A DNA stretch of 64,000 nucleotides from Halococcus agarilyticus (GTDB lineage: Archaea; Halobacteriota; Halobacteria; Halobacteriales; Halococcaceae). Positions within the stretch are counted from its first letter, which is position 1, and each line of letters begins with the position of its first letter. A program made the translations under genes and the position numbers. Location of the stretch: assembly GCF_000334895.1 (NCBI RefSeq), contig NZ_BAFM01000017.1:1-64000 (forward strand), read 5' to 3'. Under the pieces are notes generated by a model. That model was not told where the DNA came from. It saw only the letters and a list, made by a program, of their open reading frames with translations, and made no database searches. Positions 44,808-53,340 of the stretch are shown here, piece after piece.

Positions 44808-44817
44808 AGTCGACACG

Positions 44818-45966
44818 GTGCGAATTTTCGACACGACGCTACGTGACGGCGAGCAGTCGCCACGCACCTCGTTCAGCTACGACGACAAGCGCGAGATCGC
44901 CGCGACGCTGGACGAGATGGGAACCCACGTCATCGAGGCCGGGTTCCCCGTAAACTCCGACGCGGAGTTCGAGGCCGTGAACGACATCGCCGAAAGCACG
45001 AGTGTGACAACCTGCGGCCTGGCACGCGTCGTCGAGGGCGACGTCGACGCCGCGCTGGACGCTGGCGTGGAGATGGTCCACGTCTTCGCGTCCACCAGCG
45101 ACGTCCAACTGGAGGACGCGATGCACGCCAGCCGCGAGGAGATGAAAGAGCGCTCGGTCGCAGCGGTCGAGCGCGCGAAGGAGGCCGGCGTCGAGGTGAT
45201 GTTCTCGCCGATGGACGCCACCCGGACCGATCCGGAGTACTTGATCGACGTGATCGAGGCGGTCTCTGTGGCCGGCACGGACTGGATCAACGTCCCCGAT
45301 ACGTGTGGGGTTGCGACCCCGACGCGCTTCGGCGACCTGATCGAGACCGTCCGAGCGCACACCGACGCCCGGATCGACGTCCACACCCACGACGACTTCG
45401 GGCTGGCGAGCGCGAACGCGCTCGCGGGCTTCGAAAGCGGGGCCGAGCAGGCCCAGGTCAGTGTCAATGGCATCGGCGAGCGCGCCGGCAACGCCGCCTA
45501 CGAGGAGGTCGTGATGAGCGCCGAGTCGCTCTATAATGTGGACACCGGGATCGACACGACCCGGATCACCGAGCTCGCGCGGACCGTCGAGCGGATGAGC
45601 GGGATCGAGACCCCTGCCAACAAACCGATCGTCGGCGCGAACGCGTTCAGCCACGAGTCGGGCATCCACGCCGCGGGCGTGATCGAGAACTCCGACACGT
45701 TCGAGCCGGGCGTGATGACTCCCGAGATGGTCGGCGCGGAGCGCGAACTCGTCCTGGGAAAACACACCGGCCAGCACTCGGTGCGCGAGCGGCTCGTCGA
45801 GGCGGGCTTCCAGCCGACCGACGACGAGGTGCGCGAGTGCACTCGGCGGGTGAAGGACTTCGGTGCCGAGAAGGAACGGGTCACGATGGACGTGCTGACC
45901 CGGTTCGCGCACGAGGTCGGCATCAGTCAGTCGGAGCAAATCGCCCGGACGGAGGCCGACGACTGA
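44818..45966 (+). CDS. leuA: 2-isopropylmalate synthase (LeuA/CimA family)
   Basis: 382 aa from GTG 44818, starting VRIFDTTLRDGEQSPRTSFS, the HMGL-like signature at the very N-terminus. VHTHDDFGLASANALA gives the metal-binding His pair, and VNGIGERAGNAAYEEVVM the second signature. It condenses acetyl-CoA with 2-oxoisovalerate (leucine synthesis); the close relative citramalate synthase cannot be excluded. The protein lacks the long C-terminal allosteric LeuA dimer domain, as is usual for short archaeal members. The ilvB-leuB operon starts about 410 bp downstream on the same strand but has its own promoter. Confidence 0.9.
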   Translation: MRIFDTTLRDGEQSPRTSFSYDDKREIAATLDEMGTHVIEAGFPVNSDAEFEAVNDIAESTSVTTCGLARVVEGDVDAALDAGVEMVHVFASTSDVQLEDAMHASREEMKERSVAAVERAKEAGVEVMFSPMDATRTDPEYLIDVIEAVSVAGTDWINVPDTCGVATPTRFGDLIETVRAHTDARIDVHTHDDFGLASANALAGFESGAEQAQVSVNGIGERAGNAAYEEVVMSAESLYNVDTGIDTTRITELARTVERMSGIETPANKPIVGANAFSHESGIHAAGVIENSDTFEPGVMTPEMVGAERELVLGKHTGQHSVRERLVEAGFQPTDDEVRECTRRVKDFGAEKERVTMDVLTRFAHEVGISQSEQIARTEADD

Positions 45967-46094
45967 GCCATGTCCGTTTCGAGCGCTTCGTCCCACCACC
46001 GACGGGTAGCGCCAGCCCGTGTGAGCGGGCGTGGCGGCGCGATCGATCGTCGCCGCGACCGCGGCTGGTGCAACGTTTGCAGCGCGCGCAAGGG

Positions 46095-46100
46095 TTATTA
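46095..46100 (+). promoter_or_regulatory. TATA box of the ilv-leu operon leader
   Basis: TTATTA in a GC-rich stretch, centred 29-30 bp before the ATG of a 27-codon leader frame (46127), the spacing seen for leaderless starts elsewhere in this window. It is 280 bp from the ilvB GTG, implying a long transcribed leader. Confidence 0.65.
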
Positions 46101-46126
46101 CCATCCGGCTGGTGAAGATCGATACG

Positions 46127-46210
46127 ATGTTCCGATCGACTGTCGCACGAGGGTCGCAGCCTCGGAGCGACGCGGTCGGCGTGCGTGTGTCGATTATTGT
46201 AGGGGCATAG
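46127..46210 (+). CDS. candidate ilv leader peptide (27 aa)
   Basis: The frame ends VGVRVSIIVGA-stop: four Val and two Ile in the last eleven codons, in a genome segment that otherwise prefers ATC and GTC/GTG. The final codons ATT ATT GTA GGG GCA are unusual for this DNA. Such clustering of the amino acids made by the downstream operon, next to the stop and overlapping a hairpin, is the layout of a translational attenuator. ATG is placed to be leaderless. Coding is inferred from composition and position only. Confidence 0.6.
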   Translation: MFRSTVARGSQPRSDAVGVRVSIIVGA

Positions 46211-46218
46211 CCCCCTAC
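46199..46218 (+). promoter_or_regulatory. hairpin overlapping the leader-peptide stop codon
   Basis: GTAGGGG (46199-46205) pairs perfectly with CCCCTAC (46212-46218) around a six-base loop. The 5' arm contains the last Val and Gly codons and the loop contains part of the stop. A ribosome held at the Ile-Ile-Val codons would cover or open the 5' arm. No U-tract follows, so it is not a standard intrinsic terminator; it may instead mask or expose a downstream element. Confidence 0.6.
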
Positions 46219-46379
46219 ACCACCTTCTCCCCCGACCCTGTTGCACCGACCGCACAGCGAACAGCACGCGCGACTCCCACGCGATCCATGCACGACCGAC
46301 AGCGAACTCGAAAACAACGACCGACCCGACCACGCCAGGCGCATCGCCCACGACCCACGCCACGAACGGGGGGTGTGTC
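46211..46379. other. non-coding leader between the ilv leader peptide and ilvB
   Basis: No conserved frame is seen. The stretch is C/A-rich on the plus strand and therefore likely unstructured RNA, ending in a GGGGGGTG purine run 4-12 bases before the ilvB GTG that can serve as Shine-Dalgarno. This fits internal translation initiation on a long leader. Confidence 0.5.
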
Positions 46380-48227
46380 GTGAGCGAGCAGCAACCGACC
46401 CACCGCCCCGACGCGGACGAACCGACCACCGACGGCGCGATGGCCGAGGAGGTGGCTGCCGAAGACACGAGCACCGAAGCGGCGTCCCCCGAGGACGGCG
46501 CGGACGCTCGGCCCGTGACGACCGGTTCGGAGTCGGTGGTACGCGCGCTCGAAAGGGCCGGCGTCGAGCATCTCTTCGGCGTCCAGGGCGGCGCGATCAT
46601 GCCGGTGTACGACGCGCTCTACGACTCGGCAATGGATCACGTCACGATGGCCCACGAGCAGGGCGCGGCCCACGCTGCCGACGCCTACGGCATCGTCTCG
46701 GGCGATCCGGGCGTCTGCCTCGCGACCTCGGGACCCGGCGCGACGAACCTCGTGACCGGGCTCGCGGACGCCTCGCTCGACTCGGATCCGATGATCGCGC
46801 TGACAGGACAGGTCCCGACCGCGATGGTCGGCTCGGACGCCTTCCAGGAGGCCGACACCACCGGGATCACGAGCCCCGTGACGAAGGAGAACTACTTCGC
46901 GAGCGACGCCGACACCGTGGGCGACGCGGTCGGTGAGGCGTTCGCGCTCGCCGACGAGGGTCGCCAGGGGCCCACCCTCGTCGACCTCCCGAAGGACGTG
47001 ACGAACGGCGCGACCGAGCAGGAGCCCGCCGCGGGGCGAACGCCCGAAACCTACGATCCGCCCGAACGCGCCGAGCGTGAGGCGGTCGCAGCGGCCGCCA
47101 CCGCGATCGCCAGCGCCGAGCGGCCCGTGATCCTCGCGGGCGGCGGCGTGATCAAGGCCGAGGCGTGCGACGAACTCCGGAAGTTCGCCACCGAGTACGG
47201 CGTGCCGGTGGTGACGACGATGCCCGCGGTCGGCGCGTTCCCCGAGGATCACGACCTCGCGATGGAGATGGCGGGGATGCACGGCACGGGCTACGCGAAC
47301 ATGGCGATCACTCACTGCGACGCGATGTTCGCGGTCGGCACCCGCTTCGACGACCGGCTCACTGGTGGGGTCGAGACGTTCGCGCCGGAGGCCGAGATCG
47401 TCCACGCCGACATCGATCCCGCGGAGATCAGCAAGAACGTCCACGCCGACTACCCGCTGCTCGGCGACGCCGGCACGGTGCTCGACCAGGTCCACGACGC
47501 GCTCGCCGAGGAGCGCGCGGCGGACATGTCGGCGACCGGCGAGCGCTGGCAGGAGTGGCGCGAGCAGTGTCGGGACTGGAAGGACGAGTACCCGATGGAC
47601 TACGCCGCGCCGGACGACGCACCCCTCAAACCACAGTTCGTGGTCGAGGCCGTGGACGCGGCGACGGCCGACGACACGATCGTGACGACCGGCGTCGGCC
47701 AGCACCAGATGTGGGCGGTCCAGTACTGGACGTACACCGAGCCCCGGACGTGGGTCTCCTCGCACGGCCTCGGGACGATGGGATACGGGCTACCCTCGGC
47801 CATCGGTGCGCGCTTCGCGGCCGACGACGACCAGTCGGTCGTCTGTTTCGACGGCGACGGCTCCTTCCTGATGACGCTCCAGGAGCTCGTGGTCGCGGTG
47901 CGCGAGGACCTCGACATCGTAGTGATAATCCTGAACAACGAGGCGGTCGGGATGGTGCGCCAGTGGCAGGACGGGTTCTTCGAGGGCCGACGGATGGCCT
48001 CGGAGTACCCGTGGGTGCCCGACTTCGCGACGCTCGCCGAGGCGTTCGGCGCGCGCGGGTACACCATCGAGGACGAAAGCGAGGTCGAGGACGTCGTGAG
48101 CGAGGCGCTCGCGGACGACGGGCCGTCGGTCGTCGACGCCCACATCGATCCCACGGAGAACGTCTACCCGATGGTGCCGAGCGGCGGCGCGAACGGCGAG
48201 TTCGTCCTCGCGGAGGACCAACTATGA
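46380..48227 (+). CDS. ilvB: acetolactate synthase large subunit
   Basis: 615 aa, GTG start with a G-rich ribosome-binding site. The N-terminal ~45 residues are an acidic disordered extension. The thiamine-diphosphate enzyme domains follow: catalytic Glu in [16 protein letters not shown]-linked middle domain, and the C-terminal ThDP/Mg motif [16 protein letters not shown]...[11 protein letters not shown]. It condenses two pyruvates, or pyruvate with 2-oxobutyrate, for valine/leucine and isoleucine. The stop overlaps ilvN (ATGA). Confidence 0.96.
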
Positions 48228-48853
48228 CCGAGGGACTCCAGGGCCCCGCGCCCGACGAGCGGCCACAGCCATCGGGGCGGCGCAACGCCCAGGGCATCCG
48301 GATCGATCCCGCGGTCGCGGCCGAACCCGAATCGCGGCGGACAGTTCTATCGGCGCTGGTCGAGAACGAGCCGGGTGTGCTCGCGAAGATCTCCGGGCTC
48401 GTCTCGCGCCGGCAGTTCAACATCGAGTCCCTCACCGTGGGAACGACCACGAACCCCGCAACCTCCCGGGTCACGCTGGTGATCGAGGAGCCCGAACCGG
48501 GCGTTCGCCAGGTCGAAAAGCAGCTCGACAAGGTGATCAACGTGATCTCGGTCCGCGAACTCGGCGACGACGCCGTGCGGCGCGAGCTCGTGGTGCTGAA
48601 AGTTCACGGCGAGGAGCCGGACAAGGTCCACGCCGTCACCGAGATGTACGACGGGGAGACGCTCGACGCCGGGCCACGGACCATTACCGTTCAGATTACC
48701 GGCGACGAACAGAAGATCGACGACGCGATCGACGCCTTCCAGCAGTTCGGCATCCGCGAGCTCGCACGAACCGGTCAGACCGCGCTCGCACGCGGCGAGG
48801 AGTGGACGACACACGCCGAAGAGGAGCGGTACGAACGGGTACACGAAACATGA
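48224..48853 (+). CDS. ilvN: acetolactate synthase small (regulatory) subunit
   Basis: 209 aa. An N-terminal ~30-residue disordered part precedes the ACT domain ([33 protein letters not shown], residues ~36-68; key [12 protein letters not shown] and FNIESLTVG). A C-terminal IlvN domain has [17 protein letters not shown]. It confers valine feedback on IlvB. ATG overlaps the ilvB stop by four bases; its own stop overlaps ilvC. Confidence 0.95.
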
Positions 48854-49899
48854 CAGAACACGCGACGATCTACTACGACGACGACGCAGACAGCACCGCC
48901 ATCGACGGAAAGACCGTGGCCGTACTGGGCTACGGCTCCCAGGGCCACGCCCACGCCCAGAACCTCGCCGAGAGCGGGGTCGAGGTGGTCGTGGGGCTCC
49001 GCGAGGACTCGAGTTCGCGCGATGCCGCCCGCGCGGACGGCCTCGACGTGAAAACCCCAGCAGAGGCCGCCGCCCGCGCGGACGTCGTCTCGATGCTCGT
49101 GCCGGACACCGTCCAGCCATCGGTGTACGCCGACATCGAGAACGAACTCGACGCCGGCGACACCCTCCAGTTCGCCCACGGGTTCAACATCCACTTCGGG
49201 CAGATCGAACCGCCCGAGGACGTGGACGTGACGATGATCGCCCCCAAGAGTCCGGGCCACCTCGTCCGGCGCAACTACGAGAACGATCAGGGGACGCCGG
49301 GCCTGCTCGCGGTCTATCAGGACGCGACCGGGGAGGCGAAAGCCGAGGCGCTCGCGTACGCCGAGGCGCTCGGCTGCACCCGTGCGGGCGTCGTGGAGAC
49401 CACGTTCCGCGAGGAGACCGAGACCGACCTGTTCGGCGAGCAGGCGGTGCTCTGCGGTGGCGTGACGAGCCTGATCAAGCAGGCCTACGAGACGCTCGTG
49501 GACGCCGGCTACTCCCCGGAGATGGCGTACTTCGAGTGCCTCAACGAGATGAAGCTCATCGTCGACCTGATGTACGAGGGCGGGCTCGGCGGGATGTGGG
49601 ATTCGGTCTCCGACACGGCCGAGTACGGCGGGCTCACCAAGGGCGACGTCGTGGTCGACGAGCACGCCCGCGCGAACATGGAGGAGCTCCTCGACGACGT
49701 CCAGAACGGCGCGTTCGCTCGCGAGTGGATCGCGGAGAACCAGGCCAACCGGCCCGCCTACCGCCAGCTCAGGCAAGCCGAGAAGGATCACGAGATCGAG
49801 GAGGTGGGCGAACGCCTGCGTGGGCTGTTCGCGTGGGCCGACGAGACGGAATCGAGCGAGGAACAGGGCGAAGCGGAGCGAGTCCAAGCAGATGACTGA
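48850..49899 (+). CDS. ilvC: ketol-acid reductoisomerase
   Basis: 349 aa. Rossmann motif [13 protein letters not shown] with the NADPH-type following loop ([16 protein letters not shown]), [12 protein letters not shown], and the metal/substrate Glu region in the knotted domain ([29 protein letters not shown]). Class I length. It converts acetolactate to dihydroxyisovalerate. It starts with an ATGA overlap with ilvN; the C-terminus is an acidic tail that overlaps the next small gene by eight bases. Confidence 0.96.
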
Positions 49900-50299
49900 G
49901 CACACGACACCGACGACGACCGAACCGACGAACCGAACCATGAACGACGTGAGCCACACCAACCCGAAGACCGGCCGGCCGTTCGGCGAGCGCGTGGTCT
50001 TCGCGCGCGGCCCGACGGTGGCGGCGGACGGAGGTGAGCGAAGCGACGGTTCGCGATCCTCGTCGGTCGAGCGAAGCGAGTCCGACGGTGGTGAGAGAAG
50101 CGACGGTTCTCGAACGACGGCAGACGGAACGTCTGCCGGAAGTGAGCCGAACGCGGAGCGGGCCGCGGACGACACAGCCGAAGACGCCGACGACGAGGCG
50201 GCCGACCGCATGGAGGACGTCGACCACGAGCCGCCGAGCGAGACCGCGGCGAACCCGGTCTTCGAGCGCGGCCGCGAGGGTCGCGACGACGCTCGATGA
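49892..50299 (+). CDS. spacer protein between ilvC and leuC, disordered
   Basis: 135 aa (ATG 49940 is an alternative start, [19 protein letters not shown]). It begins in the ilvC tail and ends in leuC (ATGA), so it is inside the operon. The two ends are alike: [17 protein letters not shown] early and [10 protein letters not shown] at the end, while the middle (about residues 42-120) is a Ser/Arg/Glu/Asp low-complexity stretch encoded by hairpin-rich DNA such as ggcagacggaacgtctgcc (50132-50150). This suggests an originally short protein enlarged by insertion of a repeat. Function unknown. Confidence 0.6.
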
Positions 50300-51723
50300 G
50301 CGAGTGCACCCTCTACGACAAGGTCTGGGATCGCCACGCGGTCGCGGAACTCCCCACCGGCCAGACCCAGCTGTTCGTCGGCCTCCACCTCATCCACGAG
50401 GTGACGAGCCCCCAGGCGTTCGGGATGCTCCGCGAGCGCGATCTGGAGGTCGCCTACCCCGAGCGCACCCACGCAACGGTCGATCACATCGTCCCGACGG
50501 CCGACCAGTCCCGGCCCTACGGCGACGACGCCGCCGAGGAGATGATGAGCGAACTGGAGGCAAACGTCCGTGAGGCCGGGATCGACTTCTCCGATCCCAC
50601 CACGGGCGATCAGGGCATCGTCCACGTCGTCGGTCCCGAGCAGGGGCTGACCCAGCCGGGGATGACCGTCGTCTGTGGCGATTCGCACACCGCGACCCAC
50701 GGCGCGTTCGGCGCGCTTGCCTTTGGAATCGGGACCTCCCAGATTCGGGACGTGCTCGCCACGGGCTCGATCGCGATGGAGAAGCAGCAGGTCCGCAAGA
50801 TCGAGGTCACGGGCGAACTCGGCGCGGGCGTCGAGGCGAAAGACGTGATCCTCGCGATCATCCGGAAACTCGGTACCGACGGCGGCGTCGGCTACGTCTA
50901 CGAGTACGCTGGCGACGCGATCGAAGCGTTGGGAATGGAAGGCCGAATGAGCATCTGCAACATGTCGATCGAAGGCGGCGCGCGCGCAGGCTACGTCAAC
51001 CCCGACGAGACGACCTACGAGTGGCTGCGCGAGACCGACGCCTTCCGTGACGATCCCGAGAAGTTCGAGCGACTGAAGCCCTACTGGGAGTCGATCCGCT
51101 CGGAGAGCGATGCCGGGTACGACGACGTCGTGACGATCGACGGCGGCGCGCTCGAACCGATGGTGACGTGGGGCACGACGCCCGGCCAGGGCATCGGCAT
51201 CTCCGAGCCGATCCCCGCACCCGAGGACCTCCCCGAGAGCGAGCGTGACACCGCGCGGCGCGCCCAGGAGCACACGCGCGTCGAGCCGGGTGAGAAGATG
51301 GACGGGTACGAGATCGACGTCGCCTTCCTCGGATCGTGTACCAACGCTCGCCTGGCTGATCTGCGCCGCGCGGCGCGGATCGTGGCCGGTCGCGAGGTCC
51401 ACCCCGACGTGCGCGCGATGGTCGTCCCCGGCAGCCAGCGCGTCCAGACTGCCGCCGAGGAGGAAGGGCTGCAGGACGTGTTCACCGCGGCGGGCTTCGA
51501 GTGGCGAAACGCGGGCTGTTCGATGTGTCTCGGGATGAACGAGGATCAGTTGGAGGGCGACGAAGCGTGTGCCTCCTCGTCGAACCGGAACTTCGTGGGT
51601 CGCCAGGGATCGAAGGAGGGCCGCACAGTCCTGATGAACCCGCGGATGGTGGCCGCAGCAGCCCTGAAGGGGACGGTCACGGACGTTCGCGAGATCGAAG
51701 AACGGGAGGTGCCCACCGCATGA
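50296..51723 (+). CDS. leuC: 3-isopropylmalate dehydratase large subunit
   Basis: 475 aa aconitase-family protein. The 4Fe-4S ligands are visible as GSCTNAR and GCSMCLGMN, with [23 protein letters not shown] in the N-terminal half. It isomerises 2- to 3-isopropylmalate with LeuD. Both ends overlap neighbours by four bases, so the LeuC and LeuD subunits are made from coupled frames. Confidence 0.96.
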
Positions 51724-52373
51724 GCGCCGGTGATAGCGGCGCTGCGGACGCCGACGCGGACGGCGGGGACGGTCCCGTCGAAACCGTCGAACACGTCTCG
51801 GGGACGGGCGTCCCGATCCGGGGCAACGACATCGACACCGACCAGATCATCCCGGCGCGGTTCATGAAGGTCGTCACGTTCGACGGACTGGGCCAGTTCG
51901 CCTTCTTCGATCAGCGCTTCGACGACGATGACCAGCCCAAAGAACACCCGATGAACGAGGAGCGCTTTCAGGAGGCCTCGGTGATGGCGGTCAACGCCAA
52001 CTTCGGGTGTGGCTCCTCGCGCGAGCACGCTCCCCAGGCGCTCCAGCGGTGGGGGATCGATGCGCTGGTCGGCGAGTCGTTCGCCGAGATCTTCGCGGGC
52101 AACTGCCTCGCGCTCGGGATCCCGACCGTGACCGCCGACGCGGAGGCGATCGCCGATCTCCAGGACTTCGTCGAGGACAACCCTGACGCCGCGATCGACG
52201 TCGACGTGGCCGCCGAAACGGTGCGCTACGGGGATCGAGAGATCGACGTTGCGGTCGACGACGCCCAGCGCACGGCGCTCGTCGACGGCGAGTGGGACAC
52301 GACCGCGTTGATGCGATCGAACGCAGGTGTCGTCGACGAGACTGCACGGGCGCTTCCCTACGTCGATGACTGA
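51720..52373 (+). CDS. leuD: 3-isopropylmalate dehydratase small subunit
   Basis: 217 aa. An acidic N-terminal ~25-residue extension precedes the swivel domain, with [32 protein letters not shown] and [11 protein letters not shown]. It partners LeuC. ATG overlaps the leuC stop; the stop lies eight bases inside leuB. Confidence 0.95.
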
Positions 52374-53340
52374 CCACATCGCGGTGATCCCCGGTGACGG
52401 GATCGGCGGGGAGGTCGTCCCGGTTGCGGTGAAGGTGTTCGATGCGGTCGGCGAGTTCGAATTCGAGTACGCCGAGGCTGGCGACGGAGCGCTGGCGGCA
52501 ACCGGCAGCGCGCTCCCCGACGGCACCCGCGAGCTGGCCGCGAGCGCGGATGCGACGCTGTTCGGTGCGGCGGGCGAGACCGCTGCCGACGTGATCCTCC
52601 CGCTCCGGCGGGCGGTCGAGTCGTTCGCGAACGTCCGGCCAGCGCGGGCGTATCCCGGCGTCGACGCGCTCCACCCCGAGACCGATCTCGTGTTCGTCAG
52701 AGAGAACACCGAGGGTGTCTACGCGGGGATCGAGAGCGAGATCACCGAGGACGTCCGGACGCTCACGCGCGTCACCACGGAGTCGGCCTCGCGCCGGATC
52801 GCCGAGTTCGGGTTCGATTACGCCACCGAGCACGGCTACGACGTGACCGTGGCGCACAAGGCGAACGTGATGCGCCGTACCGACGGTCTGTTTCTCGACG
52901 GCATCGGGGCGGTCGCCGACGAGCGCGGTGTGGAGTACGAAACCCATCTGATGGACGCCCTCGCGATGCATCTCGTGATGGACCCCACCGAGTATGGGGT
53001 CGTGATCTGTCCGAACCTCGCGGGCGACGTGCTCTCGGATCTCGCGGCCGGCCTGGTCGGCGGGCTGGGACTGCTCCCGAGCGCGAACGTCGGTCGCGAC
53101 CGCGCGCTGTTCGAGCCCGTTCACGGTACTGCGCCCGACATCGCTGGCGAGGGAGTCGCCAACCCCGTCGCGACGGTGTTGAGCGCCGCGATGTGCTGTG
53201 AGTATCTCGGCCACGACGCGGCGGGCGAGCGCGTGCGCGGGGCCGTGCTGGAGGTGCTCGCGGACGGACCCCGGACGCCGGATCTCGGTGGCGACGCGAC
53301 GACCGAGGACGTCGAGCGCGCGATCGTCGACCGGCTCTGA
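52366..53340 (+). CDS. leuB: 3-isopropylmalate dehydrogenase
   Basis: 324 aa, NAD-dependent isocitrate/isopropylmalate dehydrogenase family. [16 protein letters not shown] at the start, [14 protein letters not shown], the Lys-Ala-Asn-Val-Met segment ([13 protein letters not shown]), and [18 protein letters not shown] at the NAD site. It oxidises and decarboxylates 3-isopropylmalate. It is the last gene of the operon. Confidence 0.95.

Follow-up and report, generated by a model that had tools for sequence, protein, structure and literature searches.

The window, that is, the whole 64,000-nucleotide stretch of Halococcus agarilyticus DNA analysed here, contains an ilvBNC-leuCDB operon in which the genes overlap at their ends. 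The genome has nine close relatives in the same genus, and named Halococcus contigs match at 83-84%. The operon is preceded by a 27-codon upstream ORF (uORF1) whose 3' end reads ATT ATT GTA GGG GCA TAG (46193-46210). A second upstream ORF (uORF2), which the preliminary description of this DNA lacked, runs into ilvB. The features of the region are as follows.

about 44809-45966: leuA, the 5' neighbour of the leader region; a leuA-type family is the best NCBIfam match, below cut-off
46070..46091, + strand: GCAACGTTTGC-N7-GCAA element directly 5' of the TATA box; putative regulator site
46095..46100, + strand: TATA-like box TTATTA, 32 nt 5' of the uORF1 ATG
46127..46210, + strand: uORF1, ATG at 46127, 27 codons, TAG at 46208-46210; putative leader peptide MFRSTVARGSQPRSDAVGVRVSIIVGA, with a little conserved body and a conserved C-terminus
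46193..46201, + strand: candidate control codons ATT ATT GTA (Ile Ile Val), with ATT ATT at 46193-46198 and GTA at 46199-46201; both codons are rare
46198..46219, + strand: predicted hairpin UGUAGGGG / CCCCUACA, 8 bp, 46198-46205 with 46212-46219, overlapping the last codons and the stop codon
46211..46379, + strand: spacer of 169 nt, rich in C and poor in G and T (C 45%, G 22%, T 9%), with no AUG in 46211-46287
46288..46383, + strand: uORF2, its TGA overlapping the GTG start of ilvB
about 46368..46375, + strand: G-rich stretch resembling a Shine-Dalgarno (SD) sequence before ilvB, read in the sequence
46380..48227, + strand: ilvB, acetolactate synthase large subunit, GTG start (NCBIfam TIGR00118, 693 bits, over cut-off)
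48224..48853, + strand: ilvN, acetolactate synthase small subunit (NCBIfam, over cut-off)
48850..49899, + strand: ilvC, ketol-acid reductoisomerase (NCBIfam, over cut-off)
49892..50299, + strand: small ORF between ilvC and leuC, with no NCBIfam match
50296-51723, + strand: leuC (NCBIfam, over cut-off)
51720-52373, + strand: leuD (NCBIfam, over cut-off)
52366-53340, + strand: leuB-type isopropylmalate dehydrogenase (best NCBIfam family match, below cut-off)

A homologue of the small ORF at 49892-50299 stands alone behind its own leader of the ilvB type in f17 genomes (L142, L144-L146, L149, L151; L172, positions 1604-1903).

The layout of the leader region agrees with the preliminary description, which had placed a TATA box about 30 bp 5' of the ATG of a 27-codon frame and, further downstream, a C/A-rich leader of about 170 nt followed by a G-rich SD sequence and ilvB. 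That description had also called ATT and GTA unusual in this DNA, and codon usage in 39 genes of the window bears this out, with ATT accounting for 5.9% of the Ile codons and GTA for 3.2% of the Val codons. The hairpin that it had drawn over the last codons and the stop codon (7 bp, 46199-46218) is present, and folding extends it by one base pair; its predicted free energy is -13.1 kcal/mol, and its single-sequence z of -1.5 is not exceptional when taken alone. A search of the whole window against the curated Rfam models, those for ilv leaders, ppGpp/ilvB riboswitches and T-boxes among them, gave no match at the gathering threshold. The GCAACGTTTGC-N7-GCAA element may be a regulator site. Many ilvB promoters have a similar GCAANNNTTGC..GCAA ahead of the TATA box.

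Among the upstream regions of 94 distinct haloarchaeal ilvB loci, 90 have a short ORF extending through a common hairpin block. The leader is missing at the remaining four (L079, L081, L088 and L093), which fall into two divergent families and in which ilvB lies directly 3' of the preceding gene. uORF1 has 22-37 codons in the first 69 loci. At 87 of the 90 loci, the motif block is read in frame from the first ATG 3' of the TATA box, and at 72 of the 90 this ATG lies 31-33 nt from the box, distances that are approximate because the best AT-rich hexamer was taken as the TATA box. Such spacing makes a leaderless or nearly leaderless uORF1 transcript probable. A covariance model built from 54 ilvB leader sequences matches 360 of 391 genomes (training genomes included) and 79 of the 87 genera of the order, and it has no match in the non-haloarchaeal members of a set of 247 genomes of the phylum; of 16 genomes examined among those without a match, 13 have a recognisable leader. 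In the window's own genome the model finds one copy at 49.9 bits, while the next best score is 17.1; of the weak matches elsewhere in this genome, one inside a CoA-transferase-like ORF was dismissed. Thus, given its presence at 90 of 94 loci, the frame and spacing of the ATG relative to the TATA box and the breadth of the model matches, the leader upstream of ilvB is a real feature, well beyond what chance would produce. Across haloarchaea, conservation extends to the spacing of the ATG, the Ile-Val codons at the C-terminal end and the hairpin, so that the leader passes the conservation check named in the preliminary description.

Conservation within uORF1 is concentrated at its 3' end. Just before the hairpin, 87 of the 90 ilvB leaders have the codon GTA (Val) and three an Ile codon; the codon 5' of this one is Ile in 85 (ATT in 67, ATC in 18); and 3' of GTA there follows Gly GGG, then Ala or Val. 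In the body of the ORF, substitutions number 115, 108 and 146 at codon positions 1, 2 and 3, respectively. Selection at the peptide level on the uORF bodies was considered, and only this weak third-position excess was found.

The hairpin lies where control by ribosome position would require it in the folded model. Across the alignment, 85.8% of cells pair, compared with 36-62% when the partner is slid. No covariation above shuffles was detected in the 54 sequences, as both arms hardly vary, and the support for the hairpin therefore comes from near-invariant arms and a few divergent cases. In one of these (L166), the arms are GTAGGGCC/GGCCCTAC in place of GTAGGGGC/GCCCCTAC, with pairing kept and Ala changed to Pro; another (L100) has a GGGCC-GCGAT-GGCCC stem 3' of its Ile and Val codons; and in two AT-rich small genomes (L084 and L091) different stems occupy the same place. 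Compensatory change in the hairpin, another check named in the preliminary description, is visible as rescued double changes in L166 and L100 and almost absent from the alignment at large. The stop codon is usually in the hairpin loop, but in L028, L061 and L155-L158 it lies up to several codons farther 3'. In 21 of the 54 sequences GTA is present although its hairpin partner is lost, leaving the U-A pair unpaired, which argues that the codon itself matters and that pairing alone is an insufficient explanation. The stem alone is no marker, because the pattern GGGGCN{0,8}TAGCCCC was not enriched in 15 genomes over a reversed-pattern control. The aligned region holds one conserved hairpin, and no competing antiterminator hairpin was found in it or in upstream folding, the latter done on one sequence only. 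Behind the hairpin, the sequence is C/A/U-rich with a C/U-rich stretch 10-20 nt on, and the U-tract of a bacterial-type intrinsic terminator is absent; termination in archaea works differently.

The spacer and uORF2 recur as well. The uORF2 stop overlaps the ilvB start by 4 nt in 64 and by 8 nt in 8 of the 90 loci. An SD-like 4-mer precedes ilvB in 62 of 90 loci and uORF2 in none of 72, and an RYR motif is found in uORF2 in 33 of 72, so that it is not universal. In the interval between the two uORFs (72 loci, 5481 nt), ATG occurs 2 times, compared with 43 AGT, 44 GAT and 43 GTA; this depletion arises partly by construction, since the start of uORF2 was by definition the earliest ATG of the overlapping frame, but out-of-frame ATGs are depleted too. 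An AUG-poor spacer together with an overlapping uORF2 fits ribosomes that travel on to uORF2 as well as a spacer that is kept ribosome-free.

Leaders of this kind are not confined to ilvB. The covariance model has second matches in 13 genomes, four of them directly before a gene assigned by family match to valyl-tRNA synthetase, and a survey of valS genes yielded 22 leaders with the ilvB-type hairpin from several families. GTA is present in all 22, the codon before it is Phe in 12, Val in 6, Arg in 4 and Ile in none, and Val stands two codons ahead of GTA in 17. The preliminary description had named both Ile and Val codons as the control codons; the Val GTA codon holds almost without exception, whereas Ile is usual at ilvB and absent from these valS leaders. 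Another group of valS genes (L208, L211-L227), with L208 being that of the window's own genome, has an unrelated leader, mostly of 9-13 codons, with tandem GTA GTA. This second type reads M S V x x S V V R (R), with an invariant GTAGTACG and a fixed distance from the TATA box, and the GGGG hairpin is absent from it, so that its output may take a different form or be translational. For pheS, a leader that ends in GFGFFF or a similar sequence was seen in most of 29 genomes, the window's own genome with MVAEPRVGRLGDRPSTAIRRFGVRFFFAS (L325) among them. Between these leaders (L306-L334, e.g. L325) and pheS, 3' of GFGFFF, lies a conserved structured stretch, GGTGGACTC .. hairpin .. GACGAAACCG .. GGAACCGCTAA, possibly a second RNA element. 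For ileS, taken as a control in 30 genomes, no consistent or recognisable leader was found.

Second copies of ilvB in L099, L148 and L095 are preceded by leaders in which Ile codons recur (IIAIIAIIG, IIGIIGIIG and SIIGASY, respectively), the first two being SIIAIIAIIGVS and GIIGIIGIIGAPQ; these codons suggest an isoenzyme tuned to Ile.

In these sequences, then, the candidate control codons encode whichever amino acid matches the downstream gene at ilvB, valS and pheS. This match in three gene families is our main argument that the leaders would serve as tRNA-charging sensors. With the conservation at ilvB and the change to Val at valS and Phe at pheS, the proposal of the preliminary description, an Ile/Val leader-peptide attenuator, is supported. 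What the sequence comparison supports is the conserved ORF, its control codons, the hairpin, the spacer and a codon identity that follows the downstream gene.

Based on this comparison, we suggest that uORF1 encodes a leader peptide acting as a sensor of charged tRNA-Val (and tRNA-Ile), with the hairpin controlling transcription into ilvBNC-leuCDB, a reading to which we assign a probability of roughly 0.6. This reading, rather than the comparison, supplies the translation of uORF1, the stalling, the termination output, the involvement of FttA, the direction in which the system responds and the site where transcription starts. In this model, the leaderless or nearly leaderless uORF1 would be translated cotranscriptionally. 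A shortage of Ile-tRNA or of the Val-tRNA that reads GTA would hold the ribosome at ATT ATT GTA. A ribosome at GTA, with ATT in the P site, would cover the mRNA to about 46211 (taking the footprint length from general knowledge) and with it the whole 5' arm; the hairpin would not form, and RNA polymerase would continue into uORF2-ilvBNC-leuCDB. When both Val-tRNA and Ile-tRNA are plentiful, the ribosome would end at the TAG in the hairpin loop and leave, the hairpin would fold, and the polymerase would pause or terminate in ribosome-free, C-rich and AUG-free RNA, probably with the archaeal factor FttA/aCPSF1. uORF2 would then couple ilvB translation to ribosomes entering upstream. In Haloferax volcanii, one hairpin terminator reached 59% termination (PMC7237163), and FttA has been described as a functional analogue of Rho (PMC11616081); a preference of FttA for C-rich RNA is putative rather than established.

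The same sensor could instead have a translational output. Ribosomes finishing uORF1 would stay on the RNA, resume at uORF2, where the first AUG lies about 70 nt on, and pass to ilvB, with stalling and the hairpin tuning this flow or protecting the mRNA. The lack of any SD-like sequence before uORF2 and the scarcity of AUG between the uORFs (2, against about 43 for AGT, GAT or GTA) speak for this scheme, as does the overlap of the uORF2 stop with the ilvB start, given that in Haloferax the two genes of an overlapping ATGA pair are coupled in translation (PMC6728339). However, a spacer that had to be kept clear of ribosomes would be expected to be just as poor in AUG, archaeal scanning is a hypothesis only (PMC7531240), and under simple reinitiation a shortage of Val-tRNA would reduce the translation of ilvB, which is the wrong sign for a biosynthetic operon. 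We consider a purely translational output unlikely, though not negligible.

Two further explanations dispense with tRNA sensing. The inverted repeat GTAGGGGC..GCCCCTAC could be a DNA operator that binds a transcription factor, the reading frame being incidental; a near-palindrome with one nearly invariant arm and almost no covariation is what such a site would look like. Yet the promoter-spaced ATG stays in frame at 87 of 90 loci despite varying length, the codons swap with the downstream gene, the second valS type and the pheS leaders have cognate codons without the palindrome, and the divergent leaders L166, L100, L095 and L084 change their arms while keeping both the pairing and the Ile/Val codons, all of which makes an operator very improbable. 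To an equally small degree we credit an arrest peptide resembling TnaC, in which a nascent ...IVGA/V would stall the ribosome at the stop codon and sense free Val, free Ile or an intermediate rather than uncharged tRNA. C-terminal residues conserved beside the stop codon, with a C-rich spacer behind, fit such a peptide, but the strong preference for GTA and ATT over their synonyms speaks for the codons, the stop is displaced in some leaders by up to several codons (L028, L061, L155-L158), and the residues at valS and pheS differ in the way expected of tRNA sensing. The reading that we prefer is thus a leader peptide sensing charged tRNA and acting on transcription through the hairpin.

More broadly, we lean slightly towards a haloarchaeal class of leaderless attenuators, comprising ilvB (Ile-Val), two unrelated valS types (Val GTA), pheS (Phe) and perhaps trpS, that would be archaeal in origin, with a single hairpin on the control codons and the archaeal termination machinery replacing intrinsic or Rho-dependent termination. 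In the open-access literature that we searched there was no report of an archaeal leader-peptide attenuator, and a prior report in subscription journals is possible. If true, a class of this kind conserved in archaea at ilvB, valS and pheS would mean that archaea employ transcription-translation coupling in the control of amino acids, and it would offer a natural, genetically tractable system in which to test FttA-dependent termination and haloarchaeal initiation without SD motifs. The leaders make archaeal sensing of amino-acid shortage directly testable.

Ribosome-mediated attenuation is a textbook bacterial mechanism. In Escherichia coli, leader peptides with an abundance of the cognate amino acid precede the branched-chain amino acid operon ilvGMEDA (ivbL) and pheST (pheM), and these systems have intrinsic terminators with U-tracts and many control codons. 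The haloarchaeal leaders have two or three control codons by comparison, share with classical leader peptides a weakly conserved peptide body and, at pheS, have a close analogue in pheM. E. coli TnaC senses free tryptophan via peptide arrest, with Rho-dependent attenuation, and resembles the haloarchaeal leader in that a short uORF is separated from the first gene by a spacer that is rich in C, poor in G and free of ribosomes. To our knowledge, archaea lack Rho, so that FttA would have to fill its part.

Among archaea, a dRNA-seq study of Haloferax volcanii lists in its Table 2, on uORFs in long 5' UTRs, uORFs of 23 and 26 codons before a tryptophan--tRNA ligase gene and pheS; such uORFs are not interpreted there as attenuators, and ilvB and valS are absent from that table (PMC4983044). 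The closest known system is the attenuator of Corynebacterium glutamicum ilvBNC (ilvB-II motif), with the leader MTIIRLVVVTARRLP. According to its descriptions (PMC11857589, PMC10272879), it shares with the haloarchaeal leader the operon type, a leaderless leader peptide, Ile/Val codons, a GUA control codon and an RNA hairpin. By contrast, the corynebacterial system is bacterial and has competing antiterminator and terminator hairpins (PMC11857589, PMC10272879) where haloarchaea have a single hairpin on the control codons, and it is not known to have a counterpart to the second uORF that overlaps ilvB in haloarchaea. Because the U-tract terminator is missing and no antiterminator was found, the haloarchaeal leaders would constitute a variant of bacterial leader-peptide attenuation in another domain of life.
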